From positions 19,393 through 54,400 of the forward strand of contig QHRF01000088.1 in assembly GCA_003220055.1 (NCBI GenBank): 35,008 nucleotides of DNA. The letters are read 5' to 3'. This stretch comes from Verrucomicrobiota bacterium. Lineage in GTDB: Bacteria; Verrucomicrobiota; Verrucomicrobiia; Chthoniobacterales; UBA10450. Below the pieces are notes generated by a model that saw nothing but the letters and a program-made list of their open reading frames with translations, did no database searches and was not told the origin of the DNA. Each line of letters begins with the position of its first letter. The stretch's first letter is position 1. This document shows, in pieces, positions 5,476-32,465 of the stretch. A program made the translations under genes and the position numbers.

Positions 5476-5486
5476 TTTGCTAACAA

Positions 5487-8363: not shown

Positions 8364-8398
8364 CAACGATTTGGCGCTAAAGGTGTTTAATTAAGACG

Positions 8399-9490: not shown

Positions 9491-9508
9491 TCCTTGTGTG
9501 AGGTAGTA

Positions 9509-9551
9509 GCGGTTCACCGAACCGCCCGCGGGCGATTGAGGTCAATCGCCC
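9509..9551. terminator. Two adjacent hairpins between convergent genes
   Basis: GCGGTTC (9509-9515) pairs with GAACCGC (9519-9525), and GGGCGATTGA (9530-9539) pairs with TCAATCGCCC (9542-9551). Both are perfect. They lie between the OmpA-domain gene and the pseudopilin gene, where a bidirectional terminator is expected. No clear T-tract follows, so they may instead be a dispersed palindromic repeat. Confidence 0.5.
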
Positions 9552-10166: not shown

Positions 10167-10203
10167 TCCTTCGACATTCGACATTTGTGCCTCGTCATTC
10201 AAA

Positions 10204-11496
10204 TCACGTTTGCTGTTGCAAGCCCTGGATGATGCTGATGAGCGGCAGGAACAGCGCAATCACGATCGTGCCGACGACGAGCGCGAGAAACACAATCATG
10301 ATTGGCTCCAACGCCGCGGTCATGGCTGCGACTGAGTTGTCCACTTCGTCATCATAGACATCGGCGATCTTCAAAAGCATCTCGGGGAGTTGTCCGGTTT
10401 CTTCGCCGACGTCGATCATACTGACGACCATTGGTGGAAACGCGCCGCTGGCTTCAAGCGGTTGCACGATCGATTCGCCTTCCTTAACACTCTCGTGGAC
10501 CTGACCAATCGCGCCCGCGATTACCATGTTGCCGGCGGTCTCGCGGGTAATGTTAAGGGCTTGCAAGATTGGAACGCCGCTGGTGACAAGGGTTCCGAGA
10601 GTTCGCGAGAACCGTGAGATCGCTGTCTTCCGAATGACGTCGCCAAAGAGCGGAAAATGAAGTTTAGCACGGTCGATTGCCGATTTTCCGCGCGGGGTGC
10701 GATTAGCGAACTTGTATCCGGCGATCGCGGCGAAGAGCAGCGCGAGAATCACGAGCCAGTGACCCTGGACAAATCTGCTCACGGTAATGACGAGCGTCGT
10801 GATCACGGGTAATGGGCGATCGCCGAGCATGTCGTGAAAGATCGCTTCGAATTTCGGCACGATAAAGACGAGCAGAAATCCCATGATCGCGACCGCCATC
10901 GTCATGACGATGAGTGGATAGACCATAGCGGCGGCAACTTTGTTTTTAATCTTGGCCGCTTTTTCCTGAAACTCCGCGAGCCGGGTAAGAACGAGCTCGA
11001 GTACACCGCCGACTTCGCCGGCCTTCACCATATTGATGTAAAGATCGTTAAAGATGAGCGGATACAGCGCGAGACTTTCCGAAAACGTGCTGCCGCCCTG
11101 GACCGACTCAGCGAGCTTGTCGATCGTGTTTTTTAAAACCGTGTCGCGTTCCTGTTTGGCGAGAACGTTGAGGGCGCGCAAAAGAGGCAGGCCCGCATCG
11201 ATCAGGGTTGCTAGCTGACGCGTGAAAATCATTAGGATTTTCGGTTTAACTTTTTTGCGCTGGAAAAGAACGATGCCTTTTCGTTTTTCGCGCGGTTGCG
11301 CGACACGCGCGGCTTTGGCCGCGCGCTTGGCCGCTTTGCCATCGCGCCCCCCGCCTTTTCCTTCCTCGTAAACGTTGGTCGGAAAAAATCCGGCCTGACG
11401 CAGCTGGCCGATGGCTTCGTTCGTCGAAGCGGCTTCGACGAGCCCGGTCGATTCCTGTCCGCGTGAATCGAGCGCTACGTAAGTGAAACGCGGCAT
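10204..11496 (-). CDS. gspF: Type II secretion/type IV pilus inner-membrane platform protein
   Basis: GspF/PilC forms the inner-membrane platform on which the GspE ATPase acts. The 430-residue protein opens with MPRFTYVALDSRGQE as usual, then a basic, Ala/Lys-rich insertion near residues 45-75. Two T2SSF domains follow at about 90-210 and 290-415, each with the glycine- and proline-containing turn (ALNVLAKQERD and ALNITRETAGN), and membrane segments lie near 190-215, 240-260 and 395-425. It starts 25 bases after the preceding gspE. Whether the system is a pilus or a secretion machine cannot be told from this window, because no secretin or peptidase is present. Confidence 0.93.
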   Translation of the reverse strand: MPRFTYVALDSRGQESTGLVEAASTNEAIGQLRQAGFFPTNVYEEGKGGGRDGKAAKRAAKAARVAQPREKRKGIVLFQRKKVKPKILMIFTRQLATLIDAGLPLLRALNVLAKQERDTVLKNTIDKLAESVQGGSTFSESLALYPLIFNDLYINMVKAGEVGGVLELVLTRLAEFQEKAAKIKNKVAAAMVYPLIVMTMAVAIMGFLLVFIVPKFEAIFHDMLGDRPLPVITTLVITVSRFVQGHWLVILALLFAAIAGYKFANRTPRGKSAIDRAKLHFPLFGDVIRKTAISRFSRTLGTLVTSGVPILQALNITRETAGNMVIAGAIGQVHESVKEGESIVQPLEASGAFPPMVVSMIDVGEETGQLPEMLLKIADVYDDEVDNSVAAMTAALEPIMIVFLALVVGTIVIALFLPLISIIQGLQQQT

Positions 11497-11521
11497 GACG
11501 ACATCAATGTTAGGCGAACGC

Positions 11522-13207
11522 TCAGGTGTATTTCAATACCTCCTCGATGGTGGTATCGCCGGCAAAAATACTGCGCAATCCATCCTGCCGCAGCGTCACC
11601 ATTCCGAGCTCAACCGCTTTTTGTTTGAGAACGACGGTCGGCGCCCGTTCATTGACCAACTCGCGGAGCGGATCGGTGATTTTCATTAACTCATAAATTC
11701 CTTTGCGGCCCTTGTAGCCGGTGTTATTGCATGAGTCACAACCTTTGCCGTAGAAAAATTTGCGATCGCCGATATCCTTTTTGGCTAATTCGATCTGGGC
11801 CAGGAGCGATGCGTTAGGCGTGTAAGCGGCCCGGCAGTTCGGGCAGATGCTCCGGAGCAATCGCTGACCAAGCACAGCTTCGAGCGTGGCAGAAATCAAA
11901 AACGGTTCCACGCCCATGTCGATCAAGCGCGTGATTGCGCCGGGCGCATCGTTCGTGTGCAGAGTCGTGAAAACGAGATGGCCAGTGAGCGATGCTTGAA
12001 TGGCGATTTGGGCGGTCTCGAGATCGCGCGTTTCGCCGATCATGATCCGATCAGGATCCTGCCGGAGAAACGCGCGTAAAGCGCGAGCGAATGTAAGACC
12101 GATCCCCTCGTTCACCGGCACCTGAACGATTCCTTCCAAGTCGTACTCGACCGGTTCTTCGGCCGTGAGCAATTTGGCATCGATGGTGTTGATCTTGCGC
12201 AAGCAGGAATAAAGCGTCGTCGTTTTTCCGGAACCGGTCGGGCCGGTGGCAATAAAAATTCCATTCGGCCGATTGATGATTTCGAGAATGTAATTGTGCA
12301 CGTAGTCGGGCATCCCGAGCATTTCCAGATCGAGATTCACGGTCGAGCGATCGAGCACGCGCAAAACGACGCTCTCGCCGAACTGCGTCGGCAAAGTCGA
12401 AACGCGAAGATCGACATGCCGGCCGGCGATATTTTTTTGAATGCGGCCGTCCTGTGGCAGACGCCGCTCGGCGATGTTCATGTTCGCCATCACTTTGACG
12501 CGGGAGATGACCGGCAACGCGAGATGGCGCGGCGGCGGCGACATTTCGTAAAGCGCGCCGTCCACTCGATAGCGGATTTTGAATTCGTTTTCGAACGGCT
12601 CGAAATGAATATCGCTCGCGCGGTCCTGGATCGCTTGATACAAAATTAAATCGACAAAGCGAATGATCGGTGTGGCGTTCGCCTCCGCTTCGACGGCGGC
12701 GGCAGTTTCGTCGCCGCGAATTTGCAGCATGTCGCCGGCTTCGCCGAGTTGCTTGAGCACTTGCTCCATGCTCGTGGTGTCGGCGCCGTAATATTCCTTG
12801 ATTCGATTATCGATTTGCTCGGTTGGCGCGACCACAACATCGACATCTTTGCCGAGCGCGAAGCGGAGATCTTCGGCCGCGCGCGGGTCGAGCGGGTCGG
12901 CCAAAGCAATCCGCAAAGTATTTCCGCTCAAACCGATCGGAAGTGCGCGGTGAAGACGCGCCAGTCCGCTCGGAATCAATTTCAAAATCGTGGGCGGAAT
13001 TTCGTTATCGCCAAGATCGACATATTCGGCGCCGAGCGCGTCGGCGATCGTGTGATAGAAGCCGGTTTCATCGACGAAACCGCTGTCCACCATCGCCTGG
13101 ATGATGGTTTTGCCGTTCAAGTTCGCCTCGTTTAAGACGTCCTCGGCTTGCGACGGTTGAAGGACGTGCTGTTCGATGAAAAGTTCGGCGACTTGTTTCT
13201 CGTTCAT
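11522..13207 (-). CDS. gspE: Type II secretion/type IV pilus assembly ATPase (second copy)
   Basis: This hexameric ATPase powers pilin or pseudopilin polymerisation. The 561-residue protein has an N-terminal GspE_N/MshEN domain (about 1-150) and the conserved ASDIHFEP segment. It also has Walker A GPTGSGKTTTLY near residue 320, the Asp box and Walker B region (MIGETRDLETAQIA), HTNDAPGAITRL, and a four-cysteine zinc site (CPNC near 455, CDSC near 487). Its ATG shares one base with the stop of the upstream gspE copy (TAATG), so the two are translationally coupled. The two copies share the same architecture but have clearly different N-terminal domains. Confidence 0.93.
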   Translation of the reverse strand: MNEKQVAELFIEQHVLQPSQAEDVLNEANLNGKTIIQAMVDSGFVDETGFYHTIADALGAEYVDLGDNEIPPTILKLIPSGLARLHRALPIGLSGNTLRIALADPLDPRAAEDLRFALGKDVDVVVAPTEQIDNRIKEYYGADTTSMEQVLKQLGEAGDMLQIRGDETAAAVEAEANATPIIRFVDLILYQAIQDRASDIHFEPFENEFKIRYRVDGALYEMSPPPRHLALPVISRVKVMANMNIAERRLPQDGRIQKNIAGRHVDLRVSTLPTQFGESVVLRVLDRSTVNLDLEMLGMPDYVHNYILEIINRPNGIFIATGPTGSGKTTTLYSCLRKINTIDAKLLTAEEPVEYDLEGIVQVPVNEGIGLTFARALRAFLRQDPDRIMIGETRDLETAQIAIQASLTGHLVFTTLHTNDAPGAITRLIDMGVEPFLISATLEAVLGQRLLRSICPNCRAAYTPNASLLAQIELAKKDIGDRKFFYGKGCDSCNNTGYKGRKGIYELMKITDPLRELVNERAPTVVLKQKAVELGMVTLRQDGLRSIFAGDTTIEEVLKYT

Positions 13208-14910
13208 TAACTGACGTCTCCGATGGTGATTGAAATCACTTCCTCAGCGCTGGTGAGGCCCGCGAGAACTTTGCGGACGCCGTCTTCGCGCAAAGTGCGC
13301 ATGCCCAGCTCGCGGGCGCGCTGACGCAGCGACAAAGTCGCACTTCGTTTGTTGATCATGTGGCGGACTTCGTCGTCGAGAATAAAAATTTCAAAGATGC
13401 CCATGCGGCCTTTGTAACCAGTGCCGCGACATTGCTCGCAGCCTTTGCCTTGCATCACTTGCGCGTCGCGGAGTTGACCCGGCTCGATTCGCAGAGCGCG
13501 GATTTCGCTTTCGCCCAGTTCCACGGGTTCCCGGCAATTCGGACAGATTCGCCGAACGAGTCGTTGTGCCATGATCGCGCGCAGGGACGAAGCAACGAGA
13601 AAGGGCTGCACGCCGATGTCGATCAAACGCGGGATGGCGGACGGCGCGTCGTTGGTGTGGAGTGTGCTGAAGACGAGATGACCAGTCAGTGAAGCGTTCG
13701 TTGCGATGCTGGCGGTTTCGAGATCGCGGATCTCGCCGATCATGATCACGTTCGGCGCCTGGCGAAGAATCGAGCGCAAGGCCGCCGGAAATGTCATCCC
13801 GATTTCCGGATTTACCTGGACCTGATTGATGCCGGTCATTTGATATTCGATCGGTTCTTCGACGGTGATAATCTTGCGGTCCGGCTTGTTAATGTAATTG
13901 AGACAAGCGTAGAGCGTGCTGGTTTTTCCGGAGCCGGTCGGTCCGGTGACGAGCAAAACTCCGTCCGGCAATTGAATCAAACGCTCGAATGTTTCCTGGT
14001 CGTCGCTGAAAAAACCAAGCTCGGGCAGCCCAAGCATCAGACTCGATTTGTCGAGGACGCGCATGACGACGCTCTCGCCATGATTGGTCGGGATGGTGGA
14101 GACGCGCAGGTCGATCGGCTTCTTTTTGATTTTGACCTGAATCCGTCCGTCCTGTGGCAGTCGCTTTTCGGCGATGCTCATCGAACCGGTCATGATTTTT
14201 AGCCGGCTGACGATGGCGGATTGCAAACGTTTTGGCGGCGCCTGCATTTCCTGGAGGACGCCGTCAATTCGGAACCGGACACGGAATTTTTTGTCGAGCG
14301 GCTCGAGATGAATGTCGCTCGCGCCGGCGCGATGCGCTTCGATGATCAACATTGAGACCATGCGAATGATTGGGGCGTCGGCTTCATCGACTTCGGTGAT
14401 GGCAGCGCCGTCGCCGAGCTCGAGACCAAGATCGACATCTTCGCCAATTTTTTCTTTGAGGGCATCGGCGGCTTCATCTGCCGTGCCGTAATATTTGATC
14501 AGCGCTTCCCGAATTTTTTCGAGGCTTGTGCAAACCAGCTCGAGCTCGCGTTGGAGCAAAAAGCTCAGGCTATCGATCGTGTCGATGTCGAGTGGATCGC
14601 TTACGGCTACGACCAGACCGGTTTCGCCAAAAGCGACTGGAATGACTTTGAACCGCCGCGCGTCTTCAGCGCGGATCTGTTTGATAATCGCCGGCGGAAT
14701 CACCATCGTGGAGAGATCGATCCAGTCCATGTGCGCCTGCGCGGCCAGCGAACGCGAGACGTCGGACTCGGTAACGGCGCCACCTTTAATCAGAAGATCG
14801 ACAATGTTGTTCTGGCCGTCCAAGCGCGGGCGTGCTTTGTCGATTTGCTTGCGCGAAACCAACCCGACGTCTTGCAGGACTTTGAGGACGTAATCTTCGT
14901 TTTGTTGCAC
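13207..14910 (-). CDS. gspE: Type II secretion/type IV pilus assembly ATPase (first copy)
   Basis: A second full-length GspE/PilB ATPase of 567 residues. It has an N-terminal MshEN-type domain, ASDIHLEPLD and Walker A GPTGSGKTSTLYA near residue 320. MIGEIRDLETASIA, HTNDAPSAIPRL and a four-cysteine zinc site (CPNC near 454 and CEQC about 30 residues later) follow. It starts at GTG 14910 (MQQNEDYVLKVLQ) with no strong ribosome site. It is the promoter-proximal gene of the four-gene operon. Two complete ATPases in tandem ahead of one GspF suggest either a hetero-oligomer or one motor for extension and one for another task; neither is a PilT-type retraction ATPase by sequence. Confidence 0.93.
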   Translation of the reverse strand: MQQNEDYVLKVLQDVGLVSRKQIDKARPRLDGQNNIVDLLIKGGAVTESDVSRSLAAQAHMDWIDLSTMVIPPAIIKQIRAEDARRFKVIPVAFGETGLVVAVSDPLDIDTIDSLSFLLQRELELVCTSLEKIREALIKYYGTADEAADALKEKIGEDVDLGLELGDGAAITEVDEADAPIIRMVSMLIIEAHRAGASDIHLEPLDKKFRVRFRIDGVLQEMQAPPKRLQSAIVSRLKIMTGSMSIAEKRLPQDGRIQVKIKKKPIDLRVSTIPTNHGESVVMRVLDKSSLMLGLPELGFFSDDQETFERLIQLPDGVLLVTGPTGSGKTSTLYACLNYINKPDRKIITVEEPIEYQMTGINQVQVNPEIGMTFPAALRSILRQAPNVIMIGEIRDLETASIATNASLTGHLVFSTLHTNDAPSAIPRLIDIGVQPFLVASSLRAIMAQRLVRRICPNCREPVELGESEIRALRIEPGQLRDAQVMQGKGCEQCRGTGYKGRMGIFEIFILDDEVRHMINKRSATLSLRQRARELGMRTLREDGVRKVLAGLTSAEEVISITIGDVS

Positions 14911-20405: not shown

Positions 20406-20852
20406 TCAAGCAGCTCCGGCCAGGGCTGACTGCTGACCGTTGGAGGTCACGTTGGGTTTGCGCTGCTGACAGGTGGCGAGAATTCGCGCGAGCACGCAGT
20501 AGAGTTGTTCAATCGGAAGGTTTTTGCTGACGTATCCGTTCGCGCCCGCGTGGAGGGCAGCATGCATTTGCTCTTCGTCGTAGCCGACGCCGGTGAAAAC
20601 GACAATCGGAAGCGTCGGATTCAGCTCTCGCATAAAGGAGATCAGAGAAATTCCGTCAACTTTGGGCATCTTAAGATCGACAATGGCTACTTCGCAGTCG
20701 TTCTCCGAGAGCCAGGCCGCCGTCTGGAAGCCATCGGTCAAAGCGGAGCAGGTGTGACCGCGTTGACGCAGATACGTGACCAGGAACTTAGCGATGCCAG
20801 GGTCGTCATCAATGATCAGGAATTGAGAGTAGTCGCGTTTAGCCGGCTTCAT
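20406..20852 (-). CDS. Single-domain response regulator
   Basis: A CheY-like receiver of 148 residues with no output domain. The acidic pair sits in LIIDDDPG, the phospho-acceptor Asp in VAIVDLKMPK, the switch Thr in VVFTGVG, and the Lys in GYVSKN. A short Gln/Ser/Ala-rich tail follows. It lies 86 bases after lpxD on the same strand. Its cognate kinase is not shown by position; the two kinases 2-7 kb away are candidates. It would act through protein contacts rather than DNA binding. Confidence 0.88.
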   Translation of the reverse strand: MKPAKRDYSQFLIIDDDPGIAKFLVTYLRQRGHTCSALTDGFQTAAWLSENDCEVAIVDLKMPKVDGISLISFMRELNPTLPIVVFTGVGYDEEQMHAALHAGANGYVSKNLPIEQLYCVLARILATCQQRKPNVTSNGQQSALAGAA

Positions 20853-20938: not shown

Positions 20939-21952
20939 TCAGAGCCCCAGCTTTTTCTCGATCGCCTTGACCCGATCGAACAGCTTGCCCAGCCGATGAA
21001 TCCAGGCGATCTGCCGCTTCGCCTCTGGCAAGGGCACAGCTGGCGAGCCAAACCATGCGCCGCCCGGCAAGTCCTTCGAAATGCCGCTTTGCGCCGCGAT
21101 AATCGTGTTGTCCTCGATGGTAAGATGGCCAATGACCCCGACCTGGCCGGCCATCATCACTTTTTCTCCGACGCGGGTGCTGCCGGAAATGCCCGTTTGC
21201 GCGGCGATGATGGAATGCTTTCCAATAATGACGTTGTGCGCGATCTGCACAAGATTGTCGATCTTAACGCCTTCTTGGATCCAGGTCCGGCCGAATCGAG
21301 CGCGATCAATGGTTGTGTTTGCCCCGATCTCAACGTCGTCGTCAATTTGGACAATTCCGAGTTGCGGAATTTTTTGGTAACGGCCTTCGACGAATTCGAA
21401 CCCAAAACCATCCGCGCCGATTACTGCACCGCTGTGAATAATGGCGCGCGCGCCGATTCGTGTTCGTTCGCGAATGGTTACGTTCGCATAGATCAGGCAT
21501 GACGCGCCGATAATGCTTTCGTGTCCGATGTAGCTGCCGGCACCGATCACGGCGTTGTCACCAATTGTCGCGCCAGATTCGATGACCGCATGCGGTTGAA
21601 TCGAGATGCCGCTTCCGATTTTTGCAGTTGGATCGACAACCGCTGTCGGGTGAATGCCCGGCGTAAAAGCAATCGGTTTGGGCGCCAGTTTCAGGACAAC
21701 TTGCTCGAAGGCTTTCGAAGGGTTGGCCACGCGGATCTGCGCGGCCGCGGTCTGCCCGGAAAAATCCAGCGGAACAAAAACGGCCGATGCCCGTGTTTGC
21801 CGAAGGCGCGCCAGATAACGCGGATCGGCGTAAAATGTGATCTCGCCCGCGACCGCTTCCGAGAGCGATGCGGCCCCGTCAATTTCCAGCGCCGGATCGC
21901 CGCGCAATTCTCCTCCGCAAAGGGCCGCGAGTTCCTTAAGAGTAAAACTCAC
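20939..21952 (-). CDS. lpxD: UDP-3-O-(3-hydroxyacyl)glucosamine N-acyltransferase
   Basis: LpxD adds the second hydroxyacyl chain in lipid A synthesis, so the cell makes a lipid A-type outer membrane. The protein has the N-terminal uridine-binding domain (FTLKELAALCGGEL, ITFYADPRYL), then many hexapeptide repeats (IHPTAVVDPTAKIG onwards) and the catalytic His in VQIAHNVIIG. The C-terminal helix ends VKAIEKKLGL. The GTG at 21952 gives a family-typical start; a TTG at 21961 adds three residues. It lies 45 bases after the aldolase gene. No other lpx gene is nearby. Confidence 0.95.
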   Translation of the reverse strand: MSFTLKELAALCGGELRGDPALEIDGAASLSEAVAGEITFYADPRYLARLRQTRASAVFVPLDFSGQTAAAQIRVANPSKAFEQVVLKLAPKPIAFTPGIHPTAVVDPTAKIGSGISIQPHAVIESGATIGDNAVIGAGSYIGHESIIGASCLIYANVTIRERTRIGARAIIHSGAVIGADGFGFEFVEGRYQKIPQLGIVQIDDDVEIGANTTIDRARFGRTWIQEGVKIDNLVQIAHNVIIGKHSIIAAQTGISGSTRVGEKVMMAGQVGVIGHLTIEDNTIIAAQSGISKDLPGGAWFGSPAVPLPEAKRQIAWIHRLGKLFDRVKAIEKKLGL

Positions 21953-21996
21953 GTGATTCAAAGGGCGCCGGGAACATCCGCAAAATCGATGTCGAT

Positions 21997-22965
21997 CTAG
22001 GATTTAATACTCGAGCGGACTGTATCCAGTTGGCCGGCGGAACCGAGTTTCTCGTTTTTGTGCGCAATAAAGTTGGCATACTCCTCGACGAAAGTTTTTC
22101 CCGGCGGCCGAAAATCGAATTGCTCGGGATGATCGCGGAAGAATTCGCGATGGACGCGAGTCCAAACGAGGCGTCCGTCAGTGTCGATGTTCACTTTGGT
22201 CACGCCGAGTTTCGCGGCTGGCAGATACTCTTCTTCGTTCACGCCGCGCGCAGAAGGATCGAGTTTTCCACCGGCGGCATTAATGCGGTCGACTTCCGAT
22301 TTCGGAACGCTCGACGAGCCGTGCATGACGATCGGGGTGGGGGGAAGGCCAGCTTGCTTCACCTTGTCGCGAATTCCCTCAATCACATCAAAGTGGAGCG
22401 ACTGTTGCCCTTTAAACTTGTAAGCGCCATGGCTCGTTCCGATCGCGGCAGCAAGCGAGTCGCATTTCGTTTGTTTAATAAATTCAACCGCTTCGTCGGG
22501 ATTAGTCAGGCAGGCGTGGCCTTCATCCACCTTGATGTCTTCTTCGACGCCGCCAAGTCTGCCGAGCTCGGCTTCAACGCTGATGCCTTTGGGATGGGCC
22601 CTGTCCACGACCCGCTTAGTGATCTCAACATTTTTCTCGAACGGCTCCCCGCTGGCGTCAATCATTACCGAACTGTAGAACCCGGACGCGATGCAATCGT
22701 AACAAGCTTCTTCGTCGCCGTGATCGAGGTGCACGGCGAAGATTGCCTCCGGAAACATTCCTTCGGCTGTGCGAATGATCGCTTCCAGCATTCGCTTGTC
22801 GGCGTACTTTCGCGCGCCCTTGGAAAGCTGGATGATAAACGGCGCCTTGCTTTGCACGTTGCCGCGGAAAAGTCCGAGGCATTGTTCCATATTGTTGATG
22901 TTGTAGGCGCCGACAGCAAACTTGCCGTAGGCGACCTTGTAGAGTTGAGCGGTGGTGACGATCAT
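21997..22965 (-). CDS. fba: Class II fructose-bisphosphate aldolase
   Basis: This enzyme splits fructose 1,6-bisphosphate in glycolysis or joins trioses in gluconeogenesis. The 322-residue product has the zinc ligands and motifs of class II: AVHLDHGD, EAELGRLGG, AAAIGTSHGAYKF, VMHGSSSVP, and TKVNIDTDGRL near the C-terminus. It starts at ATG 22965 (MIVTTAQLYKVAYG), with no clear ribosome site. It follows the soluble histidine kinase by 73 bases on the same strand and precedes lpxD. Confidence 0.93.
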   Translation of the reverse strand: MIVTTAQLYKVAYGKFAVGAYNINNMEQCLGLFRGNVQSKAPFIIQLSKGARKYADKRMLEAIIRTAEGMFPEAIFAVHLDHGDEEACYDCIASGFYSSVMIDASGEPFEKNVEITKRVVDRAHPKGISVEAELGRLGGVEEDIKVDEGHACLTNPDEAVEFIKQTKCDSLAAAIGTSHGAYKFKGQQSLHFDVIEGIRDKVKQAGLPPTPIVMHGSSSVPKSEVDRINAAGGKLDPSARGVNEEEYLPAAKLGVTKVNIDTDGRLVWTRVHREFFRDHPEQFDFRPPGKTFVEEYANFIAHKNEKLGSAGQLDTVRSSIKS

Positions 22966-23038: not shown

Positions 23039-25042
23039 TTAATCGGATCCGCTCGTTGTCGGTAAGAGCACACTGACCTGTGTGCCTTTTGACGTCGAAT
23101 CGACTTCTACCCGGCCATGATGATCGAACACAGTCCGCTTTACAATCGGCAAACCGAGACCCATTCCGCGCGGTTTGGTAGTGCAAAACGGTGAAAAGAT
23201 CTTCTCTTTTATTTCCGGGGCGATGCCGGTGCCGTTGTCCTGGACCGTGACGACGACGGCGGCGGAATGGCGTCCTTCCCGGACAGGTTTTGCCGAGAGG
23301 GTAATGCGCGGTTTACTCCGGTCCGCGCTGGCTTCGGCAGCGTTGGCGAGAAGGTGGGCGAAGGCTTCGGCCAGCGCTGTTTCATCTCCTAACACCCGCG
23401 GCAGATTACTGGGCAATGAAGTTTCCAATTCCACTCTGCCGTTGATGCCATAGCGCGACCGGGCAATTTCAACGCCCTTTTTGACCGGGGAGCGGACGTC
23501 GATTGGCTTGAGCACGAGCTCGGGTGGATGCGCGAAGTTGTTGATTTGCGTAATAATTTTATCGAGCCGATCGATTTCATTGACCACAATCTTATTGAAC
23601 TCCTTGCGAAAATCCGCGTCATCGAAACGCTCCGGCAGGAGTTGGGCAAAAGTCTTGATCGCGACGAGCGGATTACGAATTTCGTGGGACATGCTGGCGG
23701 CCAGGTCGGTCCAGAACGTCGCTCGATCGAGCAACGCTTGTTTCTCGCGCAAAGTTTCCTCAACGGTCAAATCTTGGATTACCGCGACCGCGCCAAGGGG
23801 CGAACCGTTGTCGGCGATTTGGCGCGTTTCGACAGAAAGCGATCTCCGGGTGTTATTGTCGATCCATTGCTGCGGCGGCAACGGCGTCTTTGCTTCCAAT
23901 GTTTCGCGCAGAAAGCTGGCGAGTCTGTTGCCGACCGCTTCCACCGGCTTACTCAAAGTCTCCGCGCCGGACAGACCGAGAATTTTTTCGGCAGGCGGAT
24001 TAAACCAACGAACAGTCGCGTCCACGTCGATGGCGACGATGCCGGGCGGAATTGATTTCAGGAGCGTTTCTGCCAGCGTTCTTTGGACAGTTGCTTCTTC
24101 ATACAGAAGCGCATTTTCAAGAATGGTGGAGACGTGCTCGGCCAGCATCGTGAGACCTTCCAAGTCGCGATCGTCGAAAAGCTGCCCGGTCACACGGTGG
24201 CCGAAGAAAACCCAGCCGATGATACAGCCGCGCGCGTAAAGGGGCACGATCGCTTCGGCGCCGAACATGTCGAGCGCGCGCCTCATAACGTTTCGCTCTC
24301 GCTGGTCTGGTGTTCGAGCAAGATTGGCGCGGGAAATGAGATGCGCATGTAACTCAAACCAGCGCACCAGCGTGTCGCGCTTTTCGAATTTCAATTCTTC
24401 GGTCTCGGGCAAGCAATGAAGGCCCGCACGCAGGCGATACGGATCTCCTTTGCGAGTTTGCGAAAAGAGTCCTACCCGGCTCACGCCGGCTGCATCGGCT
24501 AAGGCTTCCACCACTGCCGCCACCAGCGTGTCCATATTGTCCAGACGGCGAAGGACCCGAGGGAATCGCAGCAACGGCAACGTCCTGATCGTGTCGATCG
24601 ATTGATGTGCAGCTTCAGTTTTCCGATGAACATCCGGCGTCAGGGTCGATGTTTCGCGCAAATCGCGGTTTTCCTGCGAAACTTTCAAATAATCGAGCGC
24701 GCGCCCGAGAAGCGCTTGAAAACGGCGCCGTTCTAAGCCGATCTCTTCAGCGGCGTAGATTCCAACCTGTTCGGCTTCGCGTAACGTCTCAGATTGAGCA
24801 ACGCCGAATGCGATGATCAAAATATCGGACCGTTCACTCTGGATTTGGTCGATTAATTCGCGGCATTCTTTTGATCGCAAATCCATCATTAAGACGGAAG
24901 GGCCCGCTTGTTGCAGAACAGGCTCGAGGCGATCTGGGTCGCTCACGTGCCGCACTTGAGCCATCGTGCGCAAGAATGCTCTCGCCCTGCGAACGAGTTC
25001 GGCATCCTGCGTATAGATGATGCAGACCGGCGCGGGCGTCAT
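23039..25042 (-). CDS. Soluble sensor histidine kinase with pseudo-receiver, GAF and PAS domains
   Basis: The 667-residue protein has an N-terminal receiver-like fold (1-125) that keeps an Asp in LMMDLRS but lacks the acidic pair and the usual Lys. A GAF domain (about 165-320) and a PAS domain (about 330-440, [15 protein letters not shown]) follow. The HisKA helix carries His453 ([16 protein letters not shown]), and the ATPase domain has [18 protein letters not shown] and GLGLPIV. No membrane segment is seen. Its ATG overlaps the stop of the membrane kinase by 4 bases, so the pair is co-translated. The HisKA region is strikingly like that of its neighbour, pointing to gene duplication. No DNA-binding regulator is adjacent. 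Confidence 0.9.
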
Positions 25043-27564
25043 GCGGCAGCCACCTTGCTGTCAAACCGCACTAACGGGAGCGAAATGTGAAACGCCGTGC
25101 CCTTGTCCAGTTCGCTCTCGACTTCGATTTGTCCTCGGTGCTCCTGAATGATTCCGTGCACGACCGATAGCCCAAGTCCCGTTCCGTAGTCTTTGGTGGT
25201 GAAGAACGGATCGAAGACGTGCGGAATATCTTCGGCCCGAATTCCTTCTCCGCTGTCGCGAATGGTAATGCGCAACGCCTCGCCCGCCCGTCCATTCCCA
25301 TTGCTCTCGCCATTGGCAGAGCCAAGGGCGCTCATCCACTGTTCGTTCGAGCGAATTTCAGTCTTCACTGATAATTCGCCATGCGTTTTCATCGCATCCA
25401 TGGCGTTTAAAAAAAAGTTGAGAAAAACCTGCTCCAGCTGATCAGCATCGCCGTGGATCGTATCGACATCCGCGCACCACGAATGATTCAATTTAATATC
25501 TTTCTGGTAAAGCCTGTGGCCAACAAGCGTAAGCGCTTTTTCCAGAATCTCATGCACATGCAGCGGTTTGAGAATTGGTTTGGCCGGCCGCGCAAACCGA
25601 AGCAGCTGATTTACGAGTGAATCAATTCGGTCGATCTCGTGCCCGATTAAATTCGAAAACGTGTCCCGAAAATCGGAGTCCTGATAACGCTCAGGAAGAA
25701 GTTGGGCGAAAGTTTTGAGCGAGACGAGCGGGTTCTTGATCTCGTGCGCCATTCCCGCTGAAAGTGTTCCAAGACTGGCCAGCCGGTCGCTGCGACGAAT
25801 TTGCAGTTCCAAACGTTTGATTGCGGTAATGTCCGTCAGCACCATCAACGCACCGAGCATTTGTCCATCTTCGCCATGAAAGATTTGTGTGCTCGTGCGC
25901 ACAATCAGGTCCTGATTGTCTGCGCGCAGAATGATTTCACCACTTTCCTGGCTTTCTCCTGTGCGCAATGTGTCGCGCAGCGGCGCCCCCAGTTGATTCG
26001 GCAGATTATCCAGCGAGCGGTCGAGCACCTCCTCGGAATTGAGTCCAGTGATTAGCCCGGCCTCGTTGTTGAAGACCGTGATGCGTTCGTCGGTCCCAGC
26101 CGCGATGACGCCGCTGGTGAGATTTTCCAGCAATGTCTCATTATAAATCTTCGCGTTCTGTACTTCGGTGAAAAGTTCCGCGTTCTCGATGGCGACGGCG
26201 AGCTGGCCGCACAGCACCTGAAGCGCGCTTTGCTCGACGGCGCCGTAAATTCGGCCGGATCGCCGTGGGCCGAGCAGCAGCACGCCGGCCAATTGATCAC
26301 GCGCAAAGATTCCCATGGCCAGCGCAATTTGAAGCGAGTCCAACTGCCGCATCACGCGCCGAAGCTGCGGCGTTGGCCTCGCGCGATGTAGTTCGTCCAT
26401 GACGATCGGTTCACGATTCGACTCAAGCTGGACGATCGTCGCCTGATCGCTCGTTAACGCCAATCGTTGACGCGATCCAATGTCGACCGTCGGATATTCC
26501 TGGGAAAATCCTTGCTTGTCCTGCAACAGGATTAAGACGCGGTCGGCGCCAACTGCCTCGGCTACGGTGCTGGCAAATCGATCGAGCAGGTCCCGTAAAG
26601 TTGTAACCGACGACAGTATTTTAGCTGCTTTGCTAACCGTGGCGCGAAAATCCAGCTGATGCGATCCGATGAAAAGACGTTCCGCCAGGCCTTGTGAAAT
26701 TCCTCGCGCCGGCGCCATCGCAAAGGCGACTACGATGGCCGCCGCCACATGCGCGATGGTGTGAGCGTTGCTCGCAGAGGATCGCAAGGCTGTTGCCACC
26801 AGCCACCAAACCAAAACATAAAGGGCGAGCAGATAAGCCGAGAGCAATCCGTAAGAAATTAGGCGCCGAAATAGGACCCCGACCTCCATGATTCTGCGCG
26901 TGGCGAGCCCGTAAGCGACCACGACGGTAAAAAGAACAACGCGAAACGGCGCTAACCAAAGCAAGCGCGATGGTTCGATAAAAAAACGAAGAACCTGATA
27001 AGCTGCGAGTGTAAATGCCAGGATAAGGATCGCGCCCAACAAAATGAATCCCAGTTCGGCTCGTTGTCTGCCCGAAGCCGCCCGCAAATCCCGCACGGAG
27101 ACAATAATTAGAGCGACAATGGCTGTGGCGAAGTAGAGCGCGTAAACGTAAACACCGATGCCATAGATCGGCTTGGGCGCGGACGCTTCCATTTGGGCGC
27201 CGATCAAAAAAAACTTTGTTTGGCAAAAACCGATCATCCCGATTGTCAGGACGGTCCATCCCCGTGACTGGCGAAGAATGTCGCGCCAGTTCTTCGGTCT
27301 TTCGCGAATCGAAAGACGCAGCAGGTTAAAGACAGCAAGTATCAGGATTCCTGCAGCGAATGCCTCTCGGATGCACCACGCTAAAATTGAGAGATTTGTC
27401 GTTATGGATCCGAAGTAAAGGCACCCCAGCCACCCGATTGCAGCCAAGGACAAAAAAAGAAAACTTTGATTGGGCTTGTGACGTGGATTGGCAAAGAACA
27501 CCGCCACAGCTATAGCCAACTGGATCGCGATCGCGCCAAGAATTGGGATTGTTTCGCTATTCAT
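25039..27564 (-). CDS. Membrane sensor histidine kinase (7TM-GAF-PAS, PrsK-like)
   Basis: An 841-residue kinase. The first 300 residues contain seven or eight hydrophobic helices (from IPILGAIAIQLAIAVAVFFA), as in 7TM-type and PrsK-type sensors. GAF (about 320-460) and PAS (about 480-590) domains follow. HisKA has His607 in GMAHEIKNPLVSLKTF, and a HATPase domain has DSGEGIRAEDIPHVFDPFF and GLGLSVV. PrsK kinases regulate exopolysaccharide/PEP-CTERM genes in other bacteria; no such locus is visible here. Its start overlaps the ketosynthase stop by 8 bases, and its stop overlaps the next kinase start by 4. Confidence 0.9.
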   Translation of the reverse strand: MNSETIPILGAIAIQLAIAVAVFFANPRHKPNQSFLFLSLAAIGWLGCLYFGSITTNLSILAWCIREAFAAGILILAVFNLLRLSIRERPKNWRDILRQSRGWTVLTIGMIGFCQTKFFLIGAQMEASAPKPIYGIGVYVYALYFATAIVALIIVSVRDLRAASGRQRAELGFILLGAILILAFTLAAYQVLRFFIEPSRLLWLAPFRVVLFTVVVAYGLATRRIMEVGVLFRRLISYGLLSAYLLALYVLVWWLVATALRSSASNAHTIAHVAAAIVVAFAMAPARGISQGLAERLFIGSHQLDFRATVSKAAKILSSVTTLRDLLDRFASTVAEAVGADRVLILLQDKQGFSQEYPTVDIGSRQRLALTSDQATIVQLESNREPIVMDELHRARPTPQLRRVMRQLDSLQIALAMGIFARDQLAGVLLLGPRRSGRIYGAVEQSALQVLCGQLAVAIENAELFTEVQNAKIYNETLLENLTSGVIAAGTDERITVFNNEAGLITGLNSEEVLDRSLDNLPNQLGAPLRDTLRTGESQESGEIILRADNQDLIVRTSTQIFHGEDGQMLGALMVLTDITAIKRLELQIRRSDRLASLGTLSAGMAHEIKNPLVSLKTFAQLLPERYQDSDFRDTFSNLIGHEIDRIDSLVNQLLRFARPAKPILKPLHVHEILEKALTLVGHRLYQKDIKLNHSWCADVDTIHGDADQLEQVFLNFFLNAMDAMKTHGELSVKTEIRSNEQWMSALGSANGESNGNGRAGEALRITIRDSGEGIRAEDIPHVFDPFFTTKDYGTGLGLSVVHGIIQEHRGQIEVESELDKGTAFHISLPLVRFDSKVAAA

Positions 27565-28801
27565 TTGGAGATACTCGATTCACCACGAGTGAACTCGCGC
27601 TCCCGCCGAGTCCGCGCACGTTTACCAATGCACGGTTAAGTTTTGTTCTCCGCGGACGCGACGGAACCACATCCAGATCGCATTCCGGGTCCGCGATCTC
27701 GTAATTCGCCGTCGGCGGAATCAATTGGTCGCGTATACTTAATGCACAGGCAGCGATTTGCAGTGGTCCGGCTGCCGCTAATGGATTGCCGGTAACTCCT
27801 TTGATTGAACTTACCGGAACTGCATAAGCCCGTTCTCTGAATACTTCCTTAATGTAGCGCACTTCCGCCGCGTCCAACGTCGGATCACCCGGACCATAAG
27901 CGGAGATATAATCGATATCCTCCGTGGTGCAGCCGGCGTTCGCCAAAGCCATTTGCATCGAGCCGCGCAAACCCGAAGCAATCCCTTCCGGCTCCAGATC
28001 GCGCTGGGCACCGTAACCGCTGATCTCAAGGTAGATTCGTGCTCCTCTCGCTTCAGCTCGTTGTAGATTTTCGAGCACAAACATACCCGCGCCTTCCGAC
28101 AAGACTCCGGACTTACGCGAAAGATCGAATGGCCGGCTGGCCCGCTCCGGCTCGCCATTGTGCGAGACACTCAGTCCACTTGCGATAAAACTGGCGACTC
28201 CGTGCAGCGTAATCGGAGCGTCTGCGCCGCCGGCAATGGCAAGTTCTGCCTCGCCCGACCGAATCATGTTCACGGCCAACGCCACCGCATCCAGGCCCGA
28301 AGGACAAGCGGAGGAAACGGTCGCTGCGTGTGCTCCGGCTCCAATGCGATCAGCAATCACGTTAGCAGCGGCCTGCGGTTTTGAAGCGCCGAGAGCCATC
28401 GGCGAGACACCGTCGAGTCCGCGTCGATCTGAATCCATAAAGACGCGTTCAATCACATCAAGGGCGCTCGTACTGACGCCCACGACGACAGGTGTCGGGC
28501 TCGGCAGGTCCAATTCTGTAATTTTCAGCCCGGCGTCTTCAATTGCCATCATCGCGGCGGCATAAGCCAGCTGCGTGTGTCGCGCCATCCGCTTCGGTTT
28601 TAGTTCCGGCTCGATGTAATTGAGTGGATTAAAATCTTTTATTTCGCCAGCAATCTGGTCCTTGAGACCGCTCGCGTCGAAGAAAGTGATCGGTGCGACG
28701 CCGCTGCGGCCGGCAAGAATCGATTCCCAGAACGCCTCGTTACCGATTCCGTTCGGAGCCAAAATCCCCATACCGGTGATCACAACGCGATTTCGCTTCA
28801 T
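27557..28801 (-). CDS. Degenerate beta-ketoacyl synthase (FabF/chain-length-factor-like)
   Basis: The 414-residue protein has the full thiolase-fold ketosynthase length. It opens with RVVITGMGILAPNGIG and has the nucleophile Cys166 in SSACPSGLDA, RPFDLSRKSGVLSEGAG and a C-terminal GLGGSASSLV. The two histidines needed for decarboxylative condensation are replaced: Tyr302 in YISAYGPGD (E. coli FabF His303) and Asn339 in VTGNPLAAAG (His340). The Lys in SSIKGVTG remains. The GPL after the last glycine run resembles KS-beta/chain-length factors, yet those usually lose the Cys instead. It probably cannot act as a normal condensing enzyme, and may be an acyl-binding or transfer protein. No acyl carrier protein or partner KS is adjacent. 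It sits in an overlapping gene set with two kinases. Confidence 0.85.
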   Translation of the reverse strand: MKRNRVVITGMGILAPNGIGNEAFWESILAGRSGVAPITFFDASGLKDQIAGEIKDFNPLNYIEPELKPKRMARHTQLAYAAAMMAIEDAGLKITELDLPSPTPVVVGVSTSALDVIERVFMDSDRRGLDGVSPMALGASKPQAAANVIADRIGAGAHAATVSSACPSGLDAVALAVNMIRSGEAELAIAGGADAPITLHGVASFIASGLSVSHNGEPERASRPFDLSRKSGVLSEGAGMFVLENLQRAEARGARIYLEISGYGAQRDLEPEGIASGLRGSMQMALANAGCTTEDIDYISAYGPGDPTLDAAEVRYIKEVFRERAYAVPVSSIKGVTGNPLAAAGPLQIAACALSIRDQLIPPTANYEIADPECDLDVVPSRPRRTKLNRALVNVRGLGGSASSLVVNRVSPNE

Positions 28802-28929
28802 TGATCCTGGCGCCTCTGCGCGCGGAGACGGCTCGTGAAGAAAGTCCGAGTGACCGCCGCCGTGAAGTCCGCGGGATTAGCGGTTAACTGGTTGTCGATT
28901 TTTTCGGCCACGAACGAATCACGACGCAT
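28798..28929 (-). CDS. Small ORF (43 aa) coupled to the ketosynthase gene
   Basis: ATG 28929 opens a 43-codon frame (MRRDSFVAEKIDNQLTANPA onwards) whose TGA overlaps the ketosynthase ATG in an ATGA at 28801-28798. It is not an acyl carrier protein; no Asp-Ser-Leu site is present. It could be a small protein or a leader frame for translational coupling. A TATAAT lies about 26 bases before its start. I do not recognise it and support comes only from the overlap. Confidence 0.35.
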   Translation of the reverse strand: MRRDSFVAEKIDNQLTANPADFTAAVTRTFFTSRLRAQRRQDQ

Positions 28930-28954
28930 TCTAGACGCTACATTAACTCCAGTC

Positions 28955-28960
28955 ATTATA
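28955..28960 (-). promoter_or_regulatory. Possible -10 box for the ketosynthase-kinase operon
   Basis: The minus strand reads TATAAT at 28960-28955, about 26 bases before the small ORF start. No good -35 hexamer lies 16-18 bases upstream, so an activator or another sigma factor would be needed. Weak evidence. Confidence 0.25.
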
Positions 28961-28984
28961 TTTTTTGCGCCCCAACCGGATCAC

Positions 28985-29013
28985 TTATTCACCAAAGCCG
29001 GAACTTATTCACA
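28985..29013 (+). promoter_or_regulatory. Pair of DnaA-box-like direct repeats
   Basis: TTATTCACC (28985-28993) and TTATTCACA (29005-29013) are parts of a 10-base direct repeat ACTTATTCAC spaced exactly 20 bases apart. The second matches the DnaA-box consensus TTATNCACA and the first differs by one base. They lie in the divergent control region between the ketosynthase-kinase set and the receiver-kinase hybrid. They could be DnaA sites or the tandem operator of another regulator. Confidence 0.4.
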
Positions 29014-29145
29014 AGTTGCACCTTGCGTGCCACTGATTTCTGCTTCACCGTTCGCCCGGCTGAGCTAGATGAATTTGCGCCTGTTTTTTTTGTTTCTCTG
29101 TCCCGTCCGCGGCATGCCCCTAGCTTCTACGGCCGCTGACGCATT

Positions 29146-30288
29146 ATGACCGCCGCGACCCAACTGCCCCAAATCCTTGTTATTGATGATGAAATGGGGC
29201 CGCGCGAAAGCTTGCGCATGCTCCTGAAACCGAATTATCAGGTGCACACGGCTGATTGTGTCGAGGCCGGGATCAAACTCCTCAAAGAGAAACAACCGGA
29301 CACGATTGTCATGGACATTCGGATGCCGGGAGTAAGCGGGATCGAGGGTTTGCGCCAAATTCGCGAGATTGATCCGCATTTATCGGTCATCATGCTCACC
29401 GGTTTTGGTGCGCTTGAAACTGCGAAGGAAGCTTTACGACTTGGCGCTAACGATTACATCGCCAAGCCATTTGATGCTCATGAAATGCAGCAGGTTATTA
29501 ATCGCAACGTTGAACGGACCCGCGCTCATCGGACGAGCGAAAATGCGGCTGCTGAAATCAAGGAATTGAACAACCGGTTGCTTAAGCAACTGGCGCAAAA
29601 AGAACGCTTGGCGGCGCTTGGCCAGGCGTCTGCCGAGTTTGTTCACGATCTTGGCAATCCACTCACTATTGTTTGGGGCTACGTCCAACTACTCGCGCGT
29701 CGTCTCGAAAAATCTGAGGAGGACGAAAGCGCCAGCTCGGTCAAAGAATTGAAAATCATCGAGCAACATGTGCGCACTTGTCGGGAATTGCTCACGATGT
29801 GGCAGGGCTACGGCAATGTCGAAGCTTCGCCCCCTAGACCGGTTTCCGTTTCGGCGACCCTTCAAGAGATTCTCAAGGGCCTCGCACCTGTGGCCGATCA
29901 AAAGGGGATCGCATTCCGAGTGACAATTTGTGATGACCGGTGCGTGCTTTTAGGAGACGCCTTGCAGCTTAATCGCGCCATTCAAAACGTCCTCATCAAT
30001 GCCGTCCAGGCTTGCCCGGAAAAAAAGGGAATTATCACAGTCAGGTGCACCCAAAAAGATTTTTACGTCGATCTTCGCGTCGAAGACAACGGGGCCGGGA
30101 TCCCGGCGGCTCAGTTGAACAAGGTTTTCGATCCTTATTTCACAACCAAACAGGCCACAAGCGGCACCGGTTTAGGACTCTATATCACCAAGAAGGTCAT
30201 CGAAGACCACAACGGCTCGATCAAAGTAGAAAGCACCCCCGGCGTTGGGACGATTTTCACGATTCGTCTCCCGTTATCGACTAGCTGA
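29146..30288 (+). CDS. Receiver-histidine kinase hybrid (soluble)
   Basis: The 380-residue protein begins with a receiver domain (about 8-125): acidic pair in LVIDDEMG, Asp57 in VMDIRMPG, Thr in VIMLTGFG, Lys in YIAKPFD. A short coiled linker follows, then a HisKA helix with His167 (FVHDLGNPLTIVWGY) and a HATPase domain (DNGAGIPAAQLNKVFDPYF, GTGLGLYITKK). No membrane segment is seen. This RR-HK order suits a phosphorelay node that is itself switched by an upstream kinase. It is divergent from the ketosynthase-kinase set, whose kinases are plausible partners. About 116 bases without an evident gene separate it from the LanB-like gene. Confidence 0.9.
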   Translation: MTAATQLPQILVIDDEMGPRESLRMLLKPNYQVHTADCVEAGIKLLKEKQPDTIVMDIRMPGVSGIEGLRQIREIDPHLSVIMLTGFGALETAKEALRLGANDYIAKPFDAHEMQQVINRNVERTRAHRTSENAAAEIKELNNRLLKQLAQKERLAALGQASAEFVHDLGNPLTIVWGYVQLLARRLEKSEEDESASSVKELKIIEQHVRTCRELLTMWQGYGNVEASPPRPVSVSATLQEILKGLAPVADQKGIAFRVTICDDRCVLLGDALQLNRAIQNVLINAVQACPEKKGIITVRCTQKDFYVDLRVEDNGAGIPAAQLNKVFDPYFTTKQATSGTGLGLYITKKVIEDHNGSIKVESTPGVGTIFTIRLPLSTS

Positions 30289-30404: not shown

Positions 30405-32465
30405 GTGCCGTATCGCCTCGCGCCAATTTTCCTGATTCGTTTAGCTGGCGCGCCTTTCGGCACGGTCGAACGTTTGGCCACACCGGTCACTGCCACCACC
30501 GCTCGCGATCTGGTCGTTAGGCAAAAACGAATCGAGCCGGGCGATGAGAAGGGCTTGGCGACAACGCTTCATGACGAGCTCGACGCCGCTCGAAAATCAT
30601 TGCTCGGTTCCGCCCGCACCATCTTGCCGCGCTATTTGATCTTTGGTGCAGAAGGAATGCGCGACCGCATTTCCTCTTTGTTGGAAATCAATCCGGATGC
30701 TGCGCTTCCCGCGCGCAACTCGCGCAGCCGCGAACGTGAGCGCCACCTCGTGCTTTATCTCCAACGCATCGCCGCGAAGAACGATACGTTTAGTGAGTTC
30801 GGACCTTCCGGCTGGGGCAGGATCGGCAAAAACGTTGCCGGAGTCGGATTGAAGCCGGAGCCCGGTATCGCAAAACGCGAAGCATTCCTGGAACGTTGGA
30901 CTGCTCACGCAATTGCGGCTGCGGTTAACGCTCGTCTAGAAAGCTCAAATCCGAAGCTAACGGTGCCCGCGCTGGAACCGCAGGCCGTGGAAATTTTGCT
31001 CGAAGACGTGACAAATTGGCTTCCAAGTCCCGCTCGCGACAAATGGTTGTCGATTTTGCAGGCGTTGGTCGAGCTCCCGCAGAAATTTGCCGCGACGACC
31101 GACACACTAGATCGACAATCGATCTTGGACGAAACCCAAGCGTCGCTGCAATCAATCGGCGCCAAACCAAAACAGGGCGATCGTTTTCTTTATACCGCTA
31201 GCAATCCGATCGGCGAAGAATGTTTTCGCGAATGTCATTTCGAAATTAACGAACGTTTGATCGATGAGGTTCCAATTCAGGCCGAGCCGTGGATCGACCT
31301 CTGGCGCGACAGTTACGCATTCATTGCTTCACGCGTGGGTGCTGGTTTGCGCGGAATCATGGAAAAGGCCGGCGCAAAAAGCGGTGTGATGCCGTTGCCC
31401 GCATTTCTGCAAGCGTGCGAAACGGCGAAACTGCCGCTGACCGGACCCGGGTTGGTTGCGCTCGCGGTCATGGCGTTTCAGGAAGTGAAAGCTGCATTTC
31501 GAAAACGATTGCAGCCGCATGTCGATCTTAGCGAATACGAACTTACACCCGAGGATTGCCATGTCGTCCGCGACAATTTCGATTACCCAAAGTTCGATGA
31601 GTACACTTATCCGTCAGCCGATCTGCAATTGGCCGCGACTTCAACTGAAGCGATCGAGGGCGGTGATTATCAATGGATCCTGGCCGAGCTGCATCCGCCA
31701 ATCGCAATGCTTCATCATTGCATGTACTGGAGTTGCCCAGACAAAGAAGCGCTCAGTCGCGCATTAGCGAGCACGACCTTCCGTCGTCCGACTTTCCACT
31801 TCGGTTTTTTCGCAGCGGATTTCACTGCTCATACCACCGTGCGTTTGTTCGACGCGATGCCCGGGCTTTCAAACTTCGTTGCGCCACAGCGCGCGAACCC
31901 GAACTGGAGAAGAATTCTGCCGACCGATGCTGAAGTTTATATCGATGAAACCACCGGCGACGTGTGTCTCCGCAAGATTGACAATCACGAACATCTCGGG
32001 TCGTTTGCGCGTGCCTGGGTGATTCCGCTTGGATTTCATCCGTTTCAATTCGGAATGGCTCAGCACACACCTCGGTTGCGTTGCGGGAAGGTGATTGTGC
32101 AACGTCGCAGCTGGACGGTGAAAGCCGAGGATTTGATGCCCGGCAATTACACCGGCATCTCGTGTAACTTAGTACTGGCCATCGCAAAATTGCGGGCCGA
32201 GAGAAATTTACCGCGCTTTGTTTACATTCGGCCGACCGAACAAGCATTGCGCCGTAGTGGCGCGGAAGGTCGCGATAAAGATACGAAACCGGTTTTTGTC
32301 GATCTCGAGAGCTATTTGTTCCTGGAAATTTTTTACCGTTGGCTGGTCAAGGCGGGCGAGATTGAAGTCACCGAAATGCTGCCTGACCCCGAGCATTTAT
32401 TTTGGAAAGAACCAGATGGCCGGCGCAGCTTTGAGCTGCGCACGCTGGTTGTTCCACGCTCATGA
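30405..32465 (+). CDS. LanB-type lantibiotic dehydratase homologue (glutamylation domain only)
   Basis: The 686-residue protein resembles the N-terminal glutamylation domain of class I lantibiotic dehydratases, which use glutamyl-tRNA to modify Ser/Thr in a precursor peptide. Recognisable parts are RHLVLYLQRIAAKNDTFSEF near residues 113-133 (the family's R..LxxLxR...PTPF region) and LPTDAEVYIDETTGDV. PRLRCGKVIVQRRSWTV and the end region LPRFVYIRP ... PVFVDLESYLFLE ... EMLPDPEHLF also match. No SpaB_C elimination domain follows; full LanB proteins are about 1000 residues. Stand-alone versions include split dehydratases and peptide aminoacyl-tRNA ligases (PEARLs). No precursor, cyclase or transporter gene is visible. 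GTG 30405 is the only candidate start in the frame. Its TGA overlaps the parA ATG by 4 bases. Confidence 0.72.
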   Translation: MPYRLAPIFLIRLAGAPFGTVERLATPVTATTARDLVVRQKRIEPGDEKGLATTLHDELDAARKSLLGSARTILPRYLIFGAEGMRDRISSLLEINPDAALPARNSRSRERERHLVLYLQRIAAKNDTFSEFGPSGWGRIGKNVAGVGLKPEPGIAKREAFLERWTAHAIAAAVNARLESSNPKLTVPALEPQAVEILLEDVTNWLPSPARDKWLSILQALVELPQKFAATTDTLDRQSILDETQASLQSIGAKPKQGDRFLYTASNPIGEECFRECHFEINERLIDEVPIQAEPWIDLWRDSYAFIASRVGAGLRGIMEKAGAKSGVMPLPAFLQACETAKLPLTGPGLVALAVMAFQEVKAAFRKRLQPHVDLSEYELTPEDCHVVRDNFDYPKFDEYTYPSADLQLAATSTEAIEGGDYQWILAELHPPIAMLHHCMYWSCPDKEALSRALASTTFRRPTFHFGFFAADFTAHTTVRLFDAMPGLSNFVAPQRANPNWRRILPTDAEVYIDETTGDVCLRKIDNHEHLGSFARAWVIPLGFHPFQFGMAQHTPRLRCGKVIVQRRSWTVKAEDLMPGNYTGISCNLVLAIAKLRAERNLPRFVYIRPTEQALRRSGAEGRDKDTKPVFVDLESYLFLEIFYRWLVKAGEIEVTEMLPDPEHLFWKEPDGRRSFELRTLVVPRS

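Follow-up and report, generated by a model that had tools for sequence, protein, structure and literature searches.

The window, that is, the whole stretch of 35,008 nucleotides analysed here, comes from the draft genome of a soil Verrucomicrobiota bacterium (2.08 Mb, 148 contigs, 80% complete), whose nearest named relatives are metagenome-assembled genomes of Chthoniobacterales/Spartobacteria. Its minus strand carries an operon that begins with a ketosynthase-like gene of the FabF fold (KS; positions 27557 to 28801, 414 aa; PF00109, 6.6e-46; PF02801, 4.8e-22), followed by two histidine kinase genes. Pfam and alignment indicated that HK1 (25039 to 27564, 841 aa) consists of a 7TM-type membrane sensor and GAF, PAS, HisKA, and HATPase domains with His607, and Pfam, profile comparison, and alignment that HK2 (23039 to 25042, 667 aa) consists of a decayed N-terminal receiver and GAF, PAS, HisKA, and HATPase domains with His453. 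KS and HK1 overlap by 8 nt (27557 to 27564) and HK1 and HK2 by 4 nt (25039 to 25042), and a 43-codon small ORF on the same strand (28798 to 28929) overlaps KS by 4 nt (28798 to 28801). The divergent gene on the plus strand (29146 to 30288) encodes a receiver-histidine kinase hybrid (RR-HK; REC-HisKA-HATPase; Pfam Response_reg, 1.3e-29; HATPase_c, 2.2e-28). KS, HK1, HK2, and RR-HK are intact, conserved genes. The earlier note had joined the small ORF, KS, and the two kinase genes into one translation unit at 25039 to 28929. Its coordinates and overlaps of 4, 8, and 4 bases were correct, and KS, HK1, and HK2 are indeed coupled; however, the small ORF is not a gene, which leaves three frames, and the operon reaches the end of HK2 at 23039 and probably 20406.

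Beyond HK2, the operon probably continues on the minus strand through genes for a class II aldolase (21997 to 22965; PF01116, 7.3e-77), LpxD (20939 to 21961), and a single-domain receiver protein of 148 aa (20406 to 20852). The aldolase gene, which starts 73 nt after HK2 and possibly shares its transcript, is a family-specific neighbour retained 3' of HK2 in most loci of the family to which the window belongs. LpxD was found as a single copy in a search of the organism's own genome assembly. The single-domain receiver protein shows about 30% identity to the receiver of RR-HK; its gene was also retained downstream in the window's family, and it is a possible output or relay. On the other side, a LanB-like gene (30405 to 32465, plus strand; PF04738, weak) directly follows RR-HK and was retained in most family loci; genes for a ParA-like ATPase and a uracil-DNA glycosylase lie downstream of it. 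Two tandem PilB/GspE-type ATPases and a PilC/GspF protein are encoded at 10204 to 14910 (minus strand), and a PilB-like gene was also observed near the module in locus L061.

An exact 4-nt overlap was observed for HK1/HK2 in 53 of 67 loci, for KS/HK1 in 27 of 68, and for HK2 and the regulator gene that follows it elsewhere in 18 of 30, with some values offset by the use of longest-ORF calls in the other loci. The start-stop overlaps recur across loci and are therefore not due to chance. The small ORF, in contrast to the three coupled genes, is most likely an untranslated leader. It matched no family among Pfam and other family profiles, and its start and frame were lost in a congener (L048); within the genus the leader was conserved at the DNA level whether coding or not, and the small ORF was no better conserved than its surroundings. 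Furthermore, the -10 hexamer (TAGAATG) of a promoter-like block, ATGACT-17-TAGAAT (28928 to 28962, minus strand), shares bases with the ATG of the small ORF; this block is the sole sigma-70-like site in the gap before KS. Most family loci retained 24 to 35 of the block's 35 bases, compared with at most 22 after shuffling, at 23 to 195 nt from the KS start. If this block is the promoter, the ATG of the small ORF would not be transcribed at all. The absence of a family match, the unconserved frame and start, and the position of the ATG within the -10 box led us to reject the small ORF as a gene. Upstream of the block, at approximately 28975 to 29025 (minus strand), two repeat-like motifs, TTGTGAATAAGT and TTGGTGAATAAGTG, were observed; their reverse complement resembles DnaA boxes (TTATTCACA), and they are retained within the genus as well as in L034.

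The predicted model of KS (mean pLDDT 82) gave TM values of 0.92 to 0.93 to FabF structures, and both the fold, which is of the thiolase type, and the sequence family are those of FabF. However, KS scored 352 bits against TIGR03150, under the equivalog cut-off of 493.75, and it lacks the Cys-His-His catalytic triad of FabF/KAS II: its active site is made up of Cys166, Tyr302 in place of the first His, Lys334, Asn339 in place of the second His, and Leu398 in place of the gating Phe. The description "degenerate ketosynthase" thus suits the loss of both His residues, but not the Cys, which was present in all 67 scorable KSs linked to the kinases. Among these 67, the first His position was occupied by His in 33, Tyr in 28, Asn in 4, and Trp in 2, and the Lys position by Lys in 63 and Arg in 4. 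The second His was replaced in 62 (Asn in 55) and retained in 5, and the full Cys-His-Lys-His set was found only once, in Candidatus Brocadia, whereas ordinary FabF loci from the same scan retained the complete catalytic set. The triad is mostly Cys-His-Asn outside the window's family and Cys-Tyr-Asn within it; the family's pattern of Cys, Lys, and Asn/Tyr was kept down to about 52% identity, and the Cys across phyla. One subgroup of kinase-linked KSs (L175 to L177 and L183) shows Cys-Asn-Arg-His, with the His loss reversed relative to the rest. Since malonyl decarboxylation by FabF requires both His residues (PMC2649909), the sequence suggests that normal elongation by KS should be impaired, and thioester loading on its Cys could persist.

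Other assignments of KS were considered. In a chain length factor (KS-beta) the Cys would be replaced by Gln, yet it was present in 67 of 67. A PpyS, OleA, or FabH type was rejected, as the best families and structures were those of FabF and the triad in the window is Cys-Tyr-Asn, not Cys-His-Asn. Nor is KS a housekeeping FabF, ordinary FabF paralogues being separate from it in the same genomes (approximately 35 to 40% identity) and in the tree described below.

HK1 scored 25 bits against HisKA_7TM, which is under the cut-off, and a Planctomycetota homologue scored 41 bits, which is over it. Residues 1 to 295 of HK1 were modelled as a bundle of at least seven membrane-length helices. A fold search with this sensor model gave no significant solved relative; a weak helical-bundle resemblance to GPCRs, with E above 0.001, was taken as no homology. 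The first 130 residues of HK2 form a decayed receiver, as indicated by profile comparison with true receivers (94%, E 1.2e-7); its homologues in Planctomycetota matched PF00072 at 1e-9 to 1e-11, and alignment showed its Asp54 to be invariant. The phospho-accepting His and the ATP-binding motifs of both kinases were likewise conserved in the alignments. RR-HK was conserved beside KS in the window's family, Kiritimatiellota, and Lentisphaerota; the suggestion that it could complete a relay is borne out insofar as RR-HK belongs to the conserved genes of the module. Known kinases were poor matches. PrsK/PrsR of PEP-CTERM systems comprises a membrane kinase with a GAF domain and a sigma-54 regulator, as do some forms of the present module, but HK1 (78.4 bits) and HK2 (94.2 bits) fell far below the TIGR02916 cut-off of 300. 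AtoS (NF008468) was rejected in the same manner, with 326.9 bits for HK1 and 231.8 bits for HK2 against a cut-off of 646.

The linkage of KS to the kinases was examined by co-occurrence. Among 37 genomes of the window's family, KS and HK1 were both present in 30, both absent in 6, and HK1 alone was present in 1 (HK1 in 31 in total). The KS orthologues in the 30 genomes showed 52 to 100% identity, ordinary FabF paralogues being far lower, and the only mismatch was in G014, whose HK1 begins at the first base of a contig. The order in the family was RR-HK diverging from KS, HK1, and HK2, usually with the aldolase gene next, and in G020 only KS and HK1 were still together. Of 289 genomes in the phylum, 46 contained HK1. 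The best KS exceeded 490 bits in 36 genomes, all of which had HK1, directly downstream in 35; in the remaining one (G269), KS and HK1 were split over contig ends. The next-best KS score, 473 bits, came from a genome without HK1, and two more divergent kinase-linked KSs (G168 and G132) scored inside the FabF range. Besides contig-edge cases, HK1 without an adjacent KS was found in G322, G172, and G242. The locus in G322 (L192) has FadL, RR-HK, HK1, HK2, and NtrC genes with no KS between FadL and HK1, and that in G172 (L178, 8627 to 11131) has a lone HK1 orthologue, 56% to a Lentisphaerota HK1, with no KS, HK2, or regulator nearby.

In the KS tree, all 67 kinase-linked KSs lay on one side of a single branch and 74 other KSs lay outside it (SH-aLRT 98), corresponding to one label change versus 47.4 with shuffled labels. 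The kinase-linked KSs in the tree were picked by their HK1 neighbour, and the co-occurrence counts serve as the independent test. Gene clustering of 43 loci revealed no shared fatty-acid synthesis neighbour of KS, and we accordingly rejected the idea that KS is tied to fatty-acid genes rather than to the kinases. The earlier note had raised two outcomes adverse to its proposal, a gene order confined to this genome and co-conservation of KS with fatty acid genes; the KS-HK-HK order was found far beyond the window's genome, and KS travels with the kinases. In the window itself, a KS of this clade lies directly upstream of an HK1 orthologue, with HK2 following, as in the module defined from the other loci.

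Outside the window's family, the usual locus consists of RR-HK and a FadL gene divergent from KS, HK1, HK2, and a regulator gene that overlaps HK2. The channel is of the FadL/OMPP1/TodX type, and the regulator is an NtrC-type sigma-54 protein or a receiver-Fis protein; in one group, HK2 is followed by just a Fis-type piece of 69 to 70 aa. Such full-form loci were found in Lentisphaerota and Kiritimatiellota and in further lineages assigned to the same phylum. FadL was detected by Pfam at four loci and was present at most loci outside the family for which sufficient upstream sequence was available. This channel, divergent to KS in most other lineages, lends circumstantial support to the acyl-sensing function proposed in the earlier note. 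An FAD-linked oxidase gene (FAD_binding_4) was observed beside the RR-HK/FadL genes in 12 loci (L174, L184, L185, L187, L190, L193 to L198, and L200), O-methyltransferase genes in L069, L181, and L200, and SAM methyltransferase genes in 8 module loci.

The window and the other family loci contain neither FadL nor an NtrC/Fis regulator gene at the locus. A genome search found no FadL anywhere in the window's genome, and FadL was absent from 55 and present in 6 of 61 family genomes. All 25 loci that have an aromatic residue (Tyr or Trp) at the first His position of KS and at least 4 kb of upstream sequence lacked FadL there, whereas FadL lay upstream in 28 loci with His or Asn, counting a partial one in L072; G048, with a Trp KS, carries FadL elsewhere in its genome. 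Shared ancestry confounds this link between the aromatic residue and the loss of FadL, the Tyr forms being one clade and the events numbering about two. As for the missing output, three full-length NtrC candidates elsewhere in the genome were only 37 to 44% identical to module regulators, below the best partners among the module regulators themselves (approximately 54 to 79% in the pairs listed), and none of these candidates was identified as the output regulator of the window's lineage.

The KS-HK1 linkage also crosses phyla. Two named Planctomycetota loci, one of them from Candidatus Brocadia, combine KS and HK1 with a B12 radical SAM protein and a receiver-HD-GYP protein, whose gene is cut by the contig end in Brocadia; FadL was present in one of the two loci and NtrC in one. 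In both (L123, Candidatus Brocadia, 4170 to 12843; L084, 7181 to 12830), the B12 radical SAM gene overlaps or nearly touches KS. The Brocadia locus also contains two further KSs, and the arrangement as a whole is possibly relevant to the unusual anammox lipids. An equation of this locus with Kuenenia kuste2802-2805 was unsupported, kuste2802 being listed as AcpS.

From the gene set, its order and overlaps, the co-occurrence, the single clade, the active-site pattern, and the intact kinase motifs, we infer a signalling module for acyl ligands in which KS would be the acyl-thioester partner of the 7TM kinase HK1, a reading whose chances we consider evenly balanced. With the same even confidence, the window's locus may be regarded as a pared-down local example of a conserved two-component module answering an acyl-type (fatty-acid-like) molecule. 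Where the module is more complete, the FadL-type channel would import a hydrophobic molecule; alternatively, the ligand may be internal acyl-ACP. KS, produced in step with HK1 and poorly suited to normal chain elongation, would bind the acyl chain through a thioester at its invariant Cys and serve HK1 as a partner that handles acyl groups: it might present or convert the ligand, or it might dock to the kinases when loaded or when unloaded. HK1 and HK2 would then pass phosphate via the receivers of HK2 and RR-HK to the NtrC/Fis regulator. The window's lineage no longer has FadL or a dedicated regulator at this locus, and Tyr has also taken the place of the first catalytic His; KS there is therefore most likely a non-condensing acyl-binding regulator. 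Because FadL is absent from the window's genome, any ligand there may be internal or different. The most specific form of this proposal is that KS is an intracellular acyl receptor that carries out no elongation, reads acyl-ACP or imported fatty acids via its Cys, and controls the 7TM kinase by contact, in a system spread through Verrucomicrobiota and found in some Planctomycetota with no described counterpart; we advance it tentatively, as somewhat less probable than the general reading.

A rather unlikely alternative is that KS is a signal synthase that joins or transfers acyl chains to yield a diffusible lipid signal, which would then be handled by FadL and HK1. Such a synthase-sensor pair would parallel CqsA/CqsS or RpfF/RpfC, the synthase here being a KS. 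The adjacent FadL would fit this role, as would the Cys-His-Asn triad of most kinase-linked KSs outside the window's family, which is that of PpyS (PMC4578411), and the tailoring-type enzymes beside the module in subsets of loci (O-methyltransferases, SAM methyltransferases, FAD oxidases in 12 loci, and B12 radical SAM proteins). However, no tailoring enzyme was constant across loci, PpyS is of FabH descent whereas KS is of FabF descent, and a stoichiometric partner would explain the KS-HK1 overlap equally well. Moreover, the window's family, with its His-to-Tyr change and its loss of FadL, is the least likely place for a condensing enzyme.

Still less probable is that KS is a metabolic enzyme, such as a specialised acyltransferase or condensing enzyme for envelope lipids, and that the kinases merely regulate KS and its neighbours, KS being their target and having no share in sensing. 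LpxD, an acyl-ACP enzyme of which this is the sole copy found, lies downstream, and in Candidatus Brocadia the KS gene is accompanied by those for two additional KSs and a B12 radical SAM protein; but LpxD and the aldolase gene adjoin the module chiefly within the window's family, the 43-locus clustering gave no common fatty-acid synthesis neighbour, and KS, which precedes the kinases with overlapping genes, tracks HK1 and not lipid genes across phyla. That KS is a functionless relic kept through its translation in the operon is very improbable: although the window's family lacks both catalytic His residues, the pattern of Cys, Lys, and Asn/Tyr is conserved, and the linked KSs are full-length open frames forming one clade.

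The proposed acyl-signalling module would resemble RpfF/RpfC or CqsA/CqsS in its working, with no synthase family in common. The closest working analogy is the DSF system RpfF/RpfC/RpfG of Xanthomonas, in which the gene for an acyl-ACP enzyme likewise lies beside that for a membrane kinase with a receiver. RpfF binds the RpfC receiver, and catalytically dead RpfF is still able to signal in Xylella (PMC4504480); the receiver-HD-GYP gene of the Planctomycetota variant adds a likeness to RpfG. Unlike KS, RpfF belongs to the crotonase family, of which no member occurred among the Pfam matches of the proteins scanned, and the module differs further by its two kinases and receiver-kinase, its NtrC/Fis regulators, and the FadL in the locus. 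In the alpha-hydroxyketone systems CqsA/CqsS and LqsA/LqsS, too, a synthase-like gene adjoins that for a multi-TM kinase, and the signal is lipid-like (PMC3376566), but CqsA and LqsA are PLP-dependent enzymes, not of the KS fold, and those systems have no KS, FadL, or second kinase.

Two ketosynthase groups were also compared. PpyS is derived from FabH and paired with LuxR-type receptors, not kinases. This photopyrone synthase is a KS making a quorum-sensing signal with a Cys-His-Asn triad (PMC4578411), whereas the KS of the window is FabF-like with Cys-Tyr-Asn. The divergent fabF paralogues of Kuenenia stuttgartiensis, which are ladderane candidates, are likewise Planctomycetota relatives of FabF with replaced active-site residues, but in them Val, Phe, or Ser takes the place of the Cys, and the paper on them makes no mention of a kinase (PMC2649909); the KSs of the present module all retain the Cys, and a kinase gene comes next. 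We found no description of a KS-HK1-HK2 module in open-licence papers, in agreement with the earlier view that no system of this layout had been described.

If the proposed reading is true, these loci would encode a system for sensing lipid signals in phyla about whose cell-cell and lipid signalling very little is known. They would also provide, alongside RpfF/RpfC, a second and unrelated case in which a fatty-acid enzyme has become part of a kinase pathway. The defined gene set of FadL, KS, HK1, HK2, and regulator offers a testable ligand and targets, and "fabF" annotations in these phyla may conceal a signalling protein.
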